In this document: positions 19,035 through 56,347 of the stretch, in pieces
Numbering within the stretch: position 1 is the first letter of the stretch
Layout of the letters: every line of letters starts with the position of its first letter
NCBI GenBank assembly: GCA_947470895.1
Contig: CANIVF010000016.1
Span: 1-64,000, forward strand
Direction: 5' to 3'
DNA: 64,000 bases
From: Bacteroidota bacterium
Lineage (GTDB): Bacteria; Bacteroidota; Bacteroidia; Cytophagales; Cyclobacteriaceae
Notes under the pieces: model-generated
The model's database searches: none
What the model was told of the DNA's origin: nothing
Seen by the model: only the letters and a program-made list of their open reading frames with translations
Position numbers and translations under genes: made by a program

Positions 19035-19118
19035 AGATAAAATGGCTTGTGAGATGCAAAACTAATTCAAAAAATGAAAAAACCTTGGTGGTTTTAGTTG
19101 GGAGAGGGGTAAAAAAAG

Positions 19119-19212
19119 TGGCAAACCGAACATCGCACCGCTACAACCGCCTACCCTTGCTACCTTCCGGTCCTGGGGGAGTTCAGCAGGAGCTGGTCGT
19201 GCCGATTTGCCG
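19119..19212 (-). ncRNA. ffs: signal recognition particle RNA, small bacterial type (4.5S)
   Basis: On the minus strand the diagnostic SRP domain IV sequence CAGGACCGGAAGGTAGCA is present with its GGAA tetraloop and asymmetric internal loop. Flanking arms pair to a long hairpin: the 5' part GGCAAATCGG pairs with the 3' part CGGTTTGCC. About 94 nt, normal for the short bacterial form. The ends are estimated from the pairing. The RNA binds Ffh and is required for cotranslational membrane targeting. Confidence 0.93.
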
Positions 19213-19252
19213 CTGTAAAACTAACAAAAAGAAGTTCACTTTGAACAAATCA

Positions 19253-55331: not shown

Positions 55332-55799
55332 TTATTGGGACAGTTTTAGGTTACGATCGAGGCTCTCTTCCAACGAGATCATGGTTTCAGTTCGCTCGAT
55401 TCCTTCAACCTGTTGCATTTTATCATGTAAAACCTCTTTCAGATGATTGGTATCGCGGCAATGAATTTTCACAAACATGGAATAATTGCCAGTGGTATAG
55501 TGGATGTTTGTGATCTCCGGAATGTTGCGGAGTTTGGACAATACCATGTCGTATAAAGCGCTTTTTTCGAGATAGATGCCAATGAAAGCCGTGATGTCGT
55601 AACCCAACTTGGCGTAATTGATTCGCAGAGTTGTTTTCTCCAGAATACCAGCATCTTCCATCTTATTCATTCGTACGTGTACGGTTCCCTGCGAAACATT
55701 GACCTTTCTGGCGACTTCGGTATAAGGTCTTTTCGCGTCCTGCATGAGAATTTCGAGGATTCTTAGATCGGTATTGTCAATTTCAAAATTTCGGCCCAT
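55332..55799 (-). CDS. Lrp/AsnC-family transcriptional regulator
   Basis: A 155-residue regulator. The N-terminal winged helix-turn-helix is IDNTDLRILEILMQDAKRPY...EVARKVNVSQGTVHVRMNKM, and the C-terminal alpha/beta RAM domain (about 70-145) has GIYLEKSALYDMVLSKLRNI and MFVKIHCRDTNHLKEVLH, where an amino-acid effector would bind. Its own promoter box (TATTTTTG, 55818-55825) suggests a separate transcript from suf, 85 bp away. Whether it controls suf is unknown. Confidence 0.93.
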   Translation of the reverse strand: MGRNFEIDNTDLRILEILMQDAKRPYTEVARKVNVSQGTVHVRMNKMEDAGILEKTTLRINYAKLGYDITAFIGIYLEKSALYDMVLSKLRNIPEITNIHYTTGNYSMFVKIHCRDTNHLKEVLHDKMQQVEGIERTETMISLEESLDRNLKLSQ

Positions 55800-55817
55800 T
55801 TTGCTTAATTATTTTTT

Positions 55818-55825
55818 CAAAAATA
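55818..55825 (-). promoter_or_regulatory. putative promoter box TATTTTTG for the Lrp-family gene
   Basis: Exact TAnnTTTG match on the minus strand, 19 bp before the ATG. The surrounding sequence is A/T-rich, so chance matches are likely; low weight. Confidence 0.3.
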
Positions 55826-55922
55826 TTAATAAAGTGGAAGTTTTGTTAAATATTACATAATTATTTTAGTCATTCCTTGACATATATCAGCATCAATCGT
55901 TTCTTTGATAAATAATTTATAA

Positions 55923-56040
55923 TGTAGGGATTTGAAATAGGCAGACAAGCCCTCCGATCTCGGGGGTGGAGATAACAGGACAAATTTCGGGTAACACCGT
56001 AACTAACTGCTCCGTGGAGGTTCGAGACCTTCCTCTACAG
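55923..56040 (+). ncRNA. type II tRNA-like RNA with enlarged variable region, copy 1 (118 nt)
   Basis: Acceptor arms TGTAGGG and CTCTACA pair over 7 bp (one G-U). A Leu/Ser-like D arm follows (TTG AAATAGGCAGA CAA), then an anticodon-arm equivalent CCCTC-CGATCTC-GGGGG, and a T arm GGAGG-TTCGAGA-CCTTC. The region between anticodon arm and T arm is about 50 nt, framed by a stem GGAG/CTCC; a normal type II arm has 11-23 nt. The anticodon position reads ATC, with G where U33 should be, so normal decoding is doubtful. No CCA encoded. Confidence 0.6.
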
Positions 56041-56067
56041 CGATCGTAAAACGTTCTTCATCAATAT

Positions 56068-56214
56068 TGTAGGGTGTTGAAATTGGCAGACAAGCCCTCC
56101 TGTCTCGGGGGTGAGGAGCAAAGGATAAACGCTAGGTAATGGGTTGACCACTAAAATGTTTTCTTATGCCTTGCAGCTAACTTCCTCGTGAAGGTTCGAG
56201 CCCTTCCTCTACAG
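56068..56214 (+). ncRNA. type II tRNA-like RNA with enlarged variable region, copy 2 (147 nt)
   Basis: Same acceptor stem, D arm (TTG AAATTGGCAGA CAA) and T arm (GAAGG-TTCGAGC-CCTTC, fully paired) as copy 1. The anticodon-arm equivalent is CCCTC-CTGTCTC-GGGGG: U33 is present and the triplet is GTC. The enlarged region is about 80 nt and opens and closes with GAGG/CCTC, which replaces GGAG/CTCC of copy 1 by compensatory changes. The 3' neighbour of the acceptor is G, and C38 and the GTC triplet match tRNA-Asp identity elements on a Leu-like body. A terminator follows immediately. Confidence 0.6.
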
Positions 56215-56215
56215 C

Positions 56216-56250
56216 AAAGCCTCATTTGGGAAACCTGATGAGGCTTTTTT
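56216..56250 (+). terminator. rho-independent terminator after the tRNA-like pair
   Basis: AAAGCCTCAT (56216-56225) is a perfect 10-bp inverted match to ATGAGGCTTT (56238-56247), followed by TTT. It starts two bases after copy 2, so the pair is transcribed on the plus strand as one unit. Confidence 0.9.
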
Positions 56251-56347
56251 ATGCCAGAAGTCTTTGTTGTAAAGCAGGTATTTAGAAGAACAAACGATTG
56301 CTTTGCGCCTCAATTTTGCCCTACTTGAGGTTTTAAAATCACTTCTT

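Follow-up and report, generated by a model that had tools for sequence, protein, structure and literature searches.

Background

Asparagine can be made on a tRNA. In Deinococcus, Thermus and Bdellovibrio the synthesis uses AspRS and the amidotransferase GatCAB, and the carrier is the translating tRNA-Asn, which needs a non-discriminating AspRS. According to passages of PMC4206432, this route has been proposed where asparagine synthetases are missing, and the clades which possess AsnRS, GlnRS and GatCAB and no asparagine synthetase include Bacteroidetes; the source of their asparagine, and which of the AspRSs are relaxed, are posed there as an open question. The nucleotides concerned are described in passages of PMC9976931: G73, G34, U35, C36 and C38 are strong aspartate determinants of AspRS, the U1-A72 pair confers amidation of Asp-tRNA-Asn by GatCAB, and G1-C72 together with U20a prevents amidation in tRNA-Asp.

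Type II tRNAs with unusual arms include tRNA-Sec and the allo-tRNAs, and tRNA-Sec is also a carrier for the making of an amino acid (passages of PMC7609411). The acceptor branch of these RNAs has 13 bp or is otherwise unusual (8/5, 9/3 etc.).

Staphylococcal cell-wall synthesis uses a non-proteinogenic tRNA-Gly, ie a tRNA kept out of translation that supplies a different pathway with amino acids. In E. coli, asnC and asnA form a divergent pair, an AsnC-type regulator lying opposite an asparagine-synthesis gene.

The RNA described here lies in a window of 64,000 nt (the whole stretch of DNA that was analysed), and compares with each of these systems in part. With the tRNA-Asn route it shares the U1-A72 signal and, as we propose, the enzymes AspRS and GatCAB, but it is a separate, apparently non-decoding RNA with an Asp anticodon, for which a normal AspRS would do. 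Like the staphylococcal tRNA-Gly it would be set aside from translation; that tRNA serves another amino acid, has no giant variable arm and involves no amidotransferase. Unlike tRNA-Sec and the allo-tRNAs it has a 7/5 branch and an Asp-like loop, and seemingly does not decode. As in asnC-asnA an AsnC-type regulator is divergent from it, but here the partner is an RNA gene. The enzymes and the principle are already known (passages of PMC4206432); an RNA dedicated to the route, with this anatomy, is what would be new. No description of such an RNA was found among the open-licence PMC papers listed in literature searches, judged by title and the start of the abstract.

Two tRNA-like units at one locus

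The features of the locus are as follows.

55332 to 55799, minus strand: gene for an AsnC-like regulator of the Lrp/AsnC family (NCBIfam AsnC 169.8 bits, 3.5e-50; Pfam AsnC_trans_reg; PDB 2cg4)
55800 to 55922, no strand: divergent intergenic region, presumed from sequence to hold the promoters for both the RNA and the regulator gene
55923 to 56040, plus strand: copy 1 of the tRNA-like RNA, 118 nt, variable region 49 nt, loop CGATCTC; 120.6 bits, E 6.3e-34, with a covariance model of 22 sequences that includes this copy
55955 to 55961, plus strand: anticodon loop of copy 1, CGATCTC, read from sequence as G33, A34, U35, C36, U37, C38
55967 to 56015, plus strand: variable arm of copy 1, with GGAG/CTCC stem, CAG/CTG helix, GACAAA/CTAA internal loop and inner hairpin
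56068 to 56214, plus strand: copy 2 of the tRNA-like RNA, 147 nt, variable region 78 nt, loop CTGTCTC; 146.9 bits, E 9.5e-42, with the same model, which includes this copy also
56100 to 56106, plus strand: anticodon loop of copy 2, CTGTCTC, with the AspRS determinants G34, U35, C36 and C38, and U37 (from sequence and family composition)
56112 to 56189, plus strand: variable arm of copy 2, with GAGG/CCTC stem, AAG/CTT helix, GATAAA/CTAA internal loop and inner hairpin
56217 to 56250, plus strand: intrinsic terminator-like hairpin, GC-rich, with a T run, common to both copies (by eye)

The AsnC-type regulator gene flanks the RNA on one side, on the opposite strand, and a long-chain acyl-CoA ligase gene on the other. 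In both copies the acceptor stem has 7 bp (UGUAGGG/CUCUACA) and leads into G73 and C74. The D stem is of Leu type, with 3 bp; the anticodon stem has 5 bp and carries a loop of 7 nt, and the T stem, also of 5 bp, carries a TTCGA T loop. A first-pass annotation had described two tandem type II tRNA-like units with a Leu-type D arm, an intact T arm and variable regions of about 50 and 80 nt, and the sequence agrees with it in each respect, including the change of the closing stem from GGAG/CTCC to GAGG/CCTC, the Asp-like loop of copy 2 (G34 U35 C36, C38) on a Leu-like body and the single terminator for both copies. Copy 1 has lost U33, as was said, and additionally carries A34.

ARAGORN reported 0 tRNAs in the window. 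No Rfam 15 covariance model, RF00005 included, matched either copy at its gathering score, and none matched 55800-56320 at E<=10. The earlier opinion that no described class fits is thus upheld for the RNA families searched, and the family described below is an additional one, unreported at this locus by both Rfam 15 and ARAGORN. An ordinary Bacteroidales small SRP RNA (77.1 bits) is present elsewhere in the window, at 19116-19218 on the minus strand.

The body of the RNA resembles tRNA-Leu cag/gag of the same genome, whose D arm GAAATTGGYAGAC is nearly alike (by eye), and a tRNA-Leu is the likely ancestor of that body. tRNA-Leu has A73 whereas the RNA has G73, and the anticodon loop, acceptor end and variable arm also differ.

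A conserved RNA family

At E<=0.01, DNA similarity gave matches in 42 of 58 genomes, counting that of the window; a few of the matches are weak. The covariance model of 22 sequences (R1) was run with stricter filters on 392 genomes of the phylum and found the family in 43. The scores of members lie between about 89 and 148 bits, except for a 76-nt form with 71.7 bits; the remaining matches listed, at 63.1 bits or less, were assigned to tRNA-Leu collectively, from their length. The RNA is present in 9/9 genomes of the window's family, in 3/3 and 3/3 of two further families of the order (in one as the short form), in 8/11, 12/14 and 5/5 genomes of the families f22, f23 and f26, and in 3/3 of f66, which belongs to another class. 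The carriers named among the matches listed are Hymenobacter, Spirosoma, Dyadobacter, Algoriphagus, Cyclobacterium, Pontibacter, Flammeovirga and Saprospiraceae. Tandem copies are frequent, with five in Flammeovirga pacifica. Contigs of G001, G004 and G049 end inside the RNA (L022, L028, L034, L036, L045), probably because tandem copies break assemblies.

Structure and loop composition were assessed on an alignment (A3) of 93 matches, 91 of them distinct, from 77 loci found by DNA similarity or the covariance model. The loci found with a sequence pattern (at least 119) were left out, and loop counts were taken on A3 because that pattern contains the loop itself; 22 such members went into the covariance model. 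In A3, which was fitted to the structure of the model, 98.4% of cells pair, two-sided change occurs in 18 of 27 pairs, 0/500 shuffles match the value for pairing or for two-sided change, and slid structures pair at 55-61%. The first MAFFT alignment gave 98.3%, 15/27 and 0/500. This is therefore a large, strongly covarying RNA family, found in Cytophagales, Saprospiraceae and other Bacteroidota. The search of relatives with a covariance model proposed in the first-pass annotation thus yielded homologues whose arms covary, and covariation across the 91 homologues bears out its claim of a functional structure. The objection that the units might come from assembly errors fails, since the same RNA occurs in dozens of separate genomes. 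A decayed gene, once an option, is excluded by the covariation and conservation. Plasmids and phages were searched and no match to the RNA was found, and a mobile element was rejected on that ground.

The acceptor end does not vary, with U1-A72, G2-C71 and U3-A70 each kept in 86/86 members. The consensus branch is 7/5, with one or two extra T-arm bases in a few members. The variable arm opens with a 4-bp stem and continues through a 3-bp helix, in which 91% of cells pair, and an internal loop to an inner hairpin whose length differs widely between members. The 5' side of the internal loop is mostly AYAAA and its 3' side is CUAA, a motif that 84 of the 85 full-length members have and that lies exactly 3 nt from the stem in the 75 members in which both motifs match the search expression. 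In the same 75 members the inner helix has a mean of 5.57 pairs, compared with 1.24 in shuffles. The conserved internal loop suggests that the arm binds a partner. Kissing of the anticodon loop with a GGAUAAA motif of the variable arm was considered and dropped, since it fails in several sequences (by eye). Palindromes of the type CCCGATAACTATCGGG, which resemble a small mobile repeat, lie inside the variable arm at L012, L025, L043 and L194; at L067 one lies upstream, beside a truncated copy.

The 76-nt form, in G047 (L041:1839-1914, minus strand), has no variable arm and keeps the acceptor end and the loop, which reads CTATCTC. The short RNA and the AsnC gene of G047 lie on different contigs, and this genome also has AsnA. 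G047 bears on the idea that the RNA, itself uncharged, is a structural scaffold on which an AspRS-GatCAB transamidosome is built. A transamidosome unites the synthetase, the tRNA and the amidotransferase in one complex (passages of PMC9976931), and CUAA (84/85) could be a docking site. The invariant U1-A72, G2-C71, U3-A70, G73 and C74 argue that the 3' end is used, and in G047 the acceptor and loop outlast the arm. We consider a scaffold very unlikely.

Aminoacylation and decoding elements

The nucleotides that AspRS reads are almost constant in A3. G73 was found in 88/88 members, U35, C36 and C38 in 90/90, and G34 in 83/90, the exceptions being five A (copy 1 of the window among them), one U and one C. 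G2-C71, kept in 86/86, also counts towards the AspRS set. The U1-A72 pair distinguishes the RNA from the 11 tRNA-Asp genes compared (10 from genomes carrying the RNA), all of which have G1-C72, and the window's genome has it in tRNA-Asn as well. By our own numbering of an enlarged D loop, position 20a is A in 90/90, so there is no U20a. The G1-C72 of bacterial tRNA-Asp, which is said to help AspRS, is absent from the RNA, and the long variable arm may get in the way of a class II synthetase.

No CA follows C74 in the units, as in 29 of the 35 tRNA genes of the window's genome, where C74 is encoded without CA; five of the others encode CCA and one is of unclear register. C74 was found in 197 of 198 units (203 less five dropped), a unit count that the search expression biases for G73 and not for C74. 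The agreement with the genome's own tRNAs fits tRNA-like processing of the RNA.

A purine at position 37 is needed for decoding; the RNA has a pyrimidine there in 90/90 (U 88, C 2). Position 33 is U in 70, G in 9, A in 7 and C in 4 of the 90. On this reading of the sequences, the features used by AspRS appear mostly kept and those needed by the ribosome do not. If an Asn-loaded GUC anticodon did decode, it would write asparagine for aspartate, so a loss of U33 and of the purine at 37 would make sense. The complete cloverleaf, the T-D loop contacts and the GUC anticodon of most copies would also suit an unusual but decoding tRNA, of Asp or suppressor type, which had been among the options first raised. 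The pyrimidine at 37, the unfixed U33, the misreading of Asp codons by an Asn-charged form and the canonical tRNA-Asp typed in 10 relatives that carry the RNA make it extremely improbable. No tRNA-Asp was seen among the 35 tRNAs of the window's genome, a draft assembly of 167 contigs; given that draft state and the tRNA-Asp of the 10 relatives, the idea that the RNA is this genome's sole tRNA-Asp was rejected.

Altered loops were compared with the presence of AsnA, since G222 (C34) and the armless G047 (A34) both have this enzyme. AsnA was rejected as the cause, because G422 (C34) lacks it and G044, whose AsnA is just under the cut-off, has a normal loop. Neither AsnA nor AsnB was found in G053 and G054 (A34), G372 (U34) or G422.

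Two further readings turn on the loop and arm. The loop sequence UCYC is invariant in 90/90, ie more constant than position 34, which would suit a small RNA that pairs with mRNAs through GUCUC and has a tRNA fold for stability only. Such a function leaves the invariant U1-A72 and G73, the co-occurrence with gatB and the absence of AsnB unexplained, and we think it highly improbable. SerRS does not read the anticodon, yet the loop is nearly frozen, and no serine link to gatB or AsnC is evident. That the RNA is a SerRS substrate acting as a seryl donor has an almost negligible probability, although SerRS does read a long variable arm and G73 (passages of PMC7609411).

Co-occurrence with gatB

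The search for gatB was made as a test after the AspRS determinants and the regulator had been recognised; the role of U1-A72 was considered only afterwards. The test covered 46 genomes, with gatB alone standing for GatCAB. All 24 genomes carrying the RNA have gatB, compared with 5 of the 22 which lack it. Within the window's own class the figures are 21/21 and 1/18 (Fisher 3.5e-10, shared ancestry ignored), and outside it gatB is present in 4/4 RNA-less genomes. Four of the five RNA-less genomes with gatB have no GlnRS over the cut-off (G098, in the class, and G137, G113 and G060, outside it) and would need GatCAB for Gln-tRNA; the fifth, G235, has GlnRS. GlnRS was over the cut-off in 17 of the 24 RNA-carrying genomes. 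Among genomes with GlnRS over the cut-off, gatB is found in 17/17 with the RNA and in 1/18 without it, namely G235.

PF00152 gives at least three matches in all 24 RNA-carrying genomes, which by their length and score were taken to be AspRS, LysRS and AsnRS. With gatB, GlnRS and the presumed AsnRS present, GatCAB would have no evident translation role in those 17 genomes. A dedicated second AspRS was not found, PF00152 giving three proteins in most of the 46 genomes, with or without the RNA; the exceptions are four matches in G222, G422, G005 and G285 (some short or split) and two in G113. The first anticodon-domain motif of AspRS is RDKGS in three RNA-carrying and two RNA-less members of the window's genus, and RDLGG in two RNA-carrying and three RNA-less members of f22. 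In this one motif, AspRS of genomes with the RNA looks like that of relatives with neither the RNA nor gatB.

Asparagine synthetases

AsnB and AsnA were tested in 80 genomes. E. coli-type AsnB (NF006949 over the cut-off) was found in 0/44 genomes with the RNA and in 20/36 without it (Fisher 2e-9, shared ancestry ignored). In the 34 genomes new to the test, ie unused when the pattern was first seen, the counts were 0/20 and 8/14. The AsnB of G086 has two internal stops and was counted as present; that of G110, which lacks the RNA, is just under the cut-off and would be the 21st. AsnA was found in 3/44 genomes with the RNA (that of G044 just under the cut-off) and in 6/36 without it. Of the 36 RNA-less genomes, 23 (G110 included) have at least one of AsnB and AsnA, and 13 lack both.

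The same exchange is seen between close relatives. In the window's genus, 15 RNA-carrying genomes tested have no AsnB, and G031 and G005, which lack the RNA and gatB, have it. In f22, G316 and G136 have the RNA and gatB and no AsnB, and G059, G401 and G178 have AsnB and neither of the others. The pattern looks more like several independent swaps than a single inheritance. G074 and G171, in f23, show none of the RNA, gatB, AsnA or AsnB over the cut-off, and are possible asparagine auxotrophs or use another route. The RNA, AsnA and AsnB are all absent from G036, G037 and G041, which are outside the gatB sample.

The main doubt comes from AsnB-like proteins. A protein of the AsnB superfamily over the cut-off of TIGR01536 ('asparagine synthase') occurs in 22/24 genomes with the RNA and in 17/22 without it. 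Six of those from RNA-carrying genomes (G000, G304, G324, G242, G136 and G316) are all under the AsnB equivalog cut-off; the best family is of exopolysaccharide or lasso type for four and TIGR01536 for G136 and G316. The genes in G136, G316 and G242 adjoin genes for glycosyltransferase, ABC-2 transporter, Wzz or UDP-sugar dehydrogenase. Those in G000 and G024 lie near S1/P1 nuclease and FAD-oxidase genes, with no polysaccharide genes among the neighbours scanned, which suggests that AsnB-like proteins may make asparagine in the window's genus, to which both genomes belong. Both are stand-alone proteins of about 630 residues over the TIGR01536 cut-off, encoded beside the nuclease gene (G000:C27:16053-17729, L375; G024:C1:3574678-3576351, L376), and RNA-less genus-mates also have an AsnB-like protein of this size. 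Such proteins would not explain why the RNA, gatB and AsnB swap.

They do bear on a different role for the RNA, that of a sensor or regulator whose charging state, or whose binding to AspRS or GatCAB, reports the asparagine supply. Asparagine itself would then be made by AsnB-like proteins, which 22 of the 24 genomes have, or would come from tRNA-Asn through the Bdellovibrio route, with GatCAB and an AspRS that is non-discriminating (passages of PMC4206432). The AsnC-like neighbour and the co-occurrence with gatB suit a sensor, and the U1-A72 of tRNA-Asn in the window's genome means that tRNA-Asn could share the work if AspRS is non-discriminating. With such an AspRS, however, the tRNA-Asp anticodon determinants on the RNA would be needless; the AspRS motif is the same in RNA-carrying genomes and in RNA-less relatives devoid of gatB, and tandem copies suit a carrier. 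We regard a sensor as unlikely, though it deserves to be kept in mind.

A proposed role for the RNA

We are fairly confident that the RNA is a dedicated, non-decoding carrier which is aspartylated by AspRS and amidated by GatCAB, and which provides a route to asparagine in place of AsnB. The proposal starts from the fold, the determinants, the co-occurrence and the neighbouring gene, all read from sequence; charging, amidation, the fate of the Asn-RNA, the inability to decode and the regulation are inferred from them. It also seems probable that the RNA, in which tRNA-Asp identity is combined with the first pair of tRNA-Asn, is made only for bulk asparagine synthesis, and that with the housekeeping AspRS and GatCAB it replaced AsnB in Cytophagales, Saprospiraceae and related lineages.

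As envisaged, the RNA would be processed in the manner of a tRNA and loaded with aspartate by the ordinary AspRS, which would read G34, U35, C36 and C38 together with G73. GatCAB, reading U1-A72, would then convert Asp-RNA to Asn-RNA, from which asparagine would be released by hydrolysis or passed on by transfer. The lack of a fixed U33, the pyrimidine at 37 and the giant variable arm would keep the RNA off the ribosome; the arm may help to keep it away from the translation machinery, or may bind a partner. Because the RNA bears an Asp anticodon, AspRS need not be relaxed.

If the proposal is correct, this would be, as far as we know, the first RNA reserved for carrying an amino acid while it is made, and a living case of RNA-bound metabolism, and deletion of the RNA is predicted to give asparagine auxotrophy. 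The first-pass annotation was right about the structure, the selection and the Leu-like body; absent from it were the pointers to function, ie the AspRS set combined with U1-A72, the neighbouring AsnC-like gene, and the occurrence of the RNA together with gatB and without E. coli-type AsnB.

The divergent regulator

The regulator falls below the NCBIfam AsnC equivalog cut-off (169.8 against 227 bits), and AsnC is still its nearest family. Its best PDB match is E. coli AsnC, 2cg4, at 1e-35, the next being at 2.8e-24. Among 165 distinct loci the gene is divergent from the RNA in 98, at a median distance of 148 nt; in 15 the sequence stops short of any upstream gene, and in 52 a different gene lies upstream. 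The divergent arrangement is also found in f66. What we take to be Bacteroidota-type promoter elements, TTTG...TANNTTTG, were seen by eye in the divergent region of many relatives. The regulator probably tunes the RNA to the asparagine supply.

All 11 RNA-carrying genomes tested have the regulator, at 54-63% identity apart from the window's own, and in Algoriphagus and Saprospiraceae, where the RNA is located elsewhere, it is still in the genome. Three RNA-less genomes of f22 have it too (54-56%), and the other RNA-less genomes of this comparison gave none, or one of at most 44% identity, at the cut-off used. The RNA-less genome G031 has an AsnC relative, 50% identical, that faces asnB across about 160 bp; this relative is 67-68% identical to those of the RNA-less f22 genomes, and so was perhaps acquired with asnB. 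In G110 an AsnC relative faces the AsnB gene at about 120 bp. An AsnC gene was near asnB in only 2 of 10 stretches examined, and near asnA in 0 of 5. An AsnC-type regulator can thus pair with asnB or with the RNA, the pairing with asnB being rare in this sample.

Two minor observations concern AsnC-family genes in RNA-less genomes. In G392 (C54:82137-83714) an AsnC-family paralogue lies tail to tail with an AsnRS-like gene. At L211, L212 and L213, in RNA-less f22 genomes, a conserved stretch TTATAATTGGTT with a strong terminator-like hairpin lies divergent from the AsnC ortholog, and is perhaps another small transcript.
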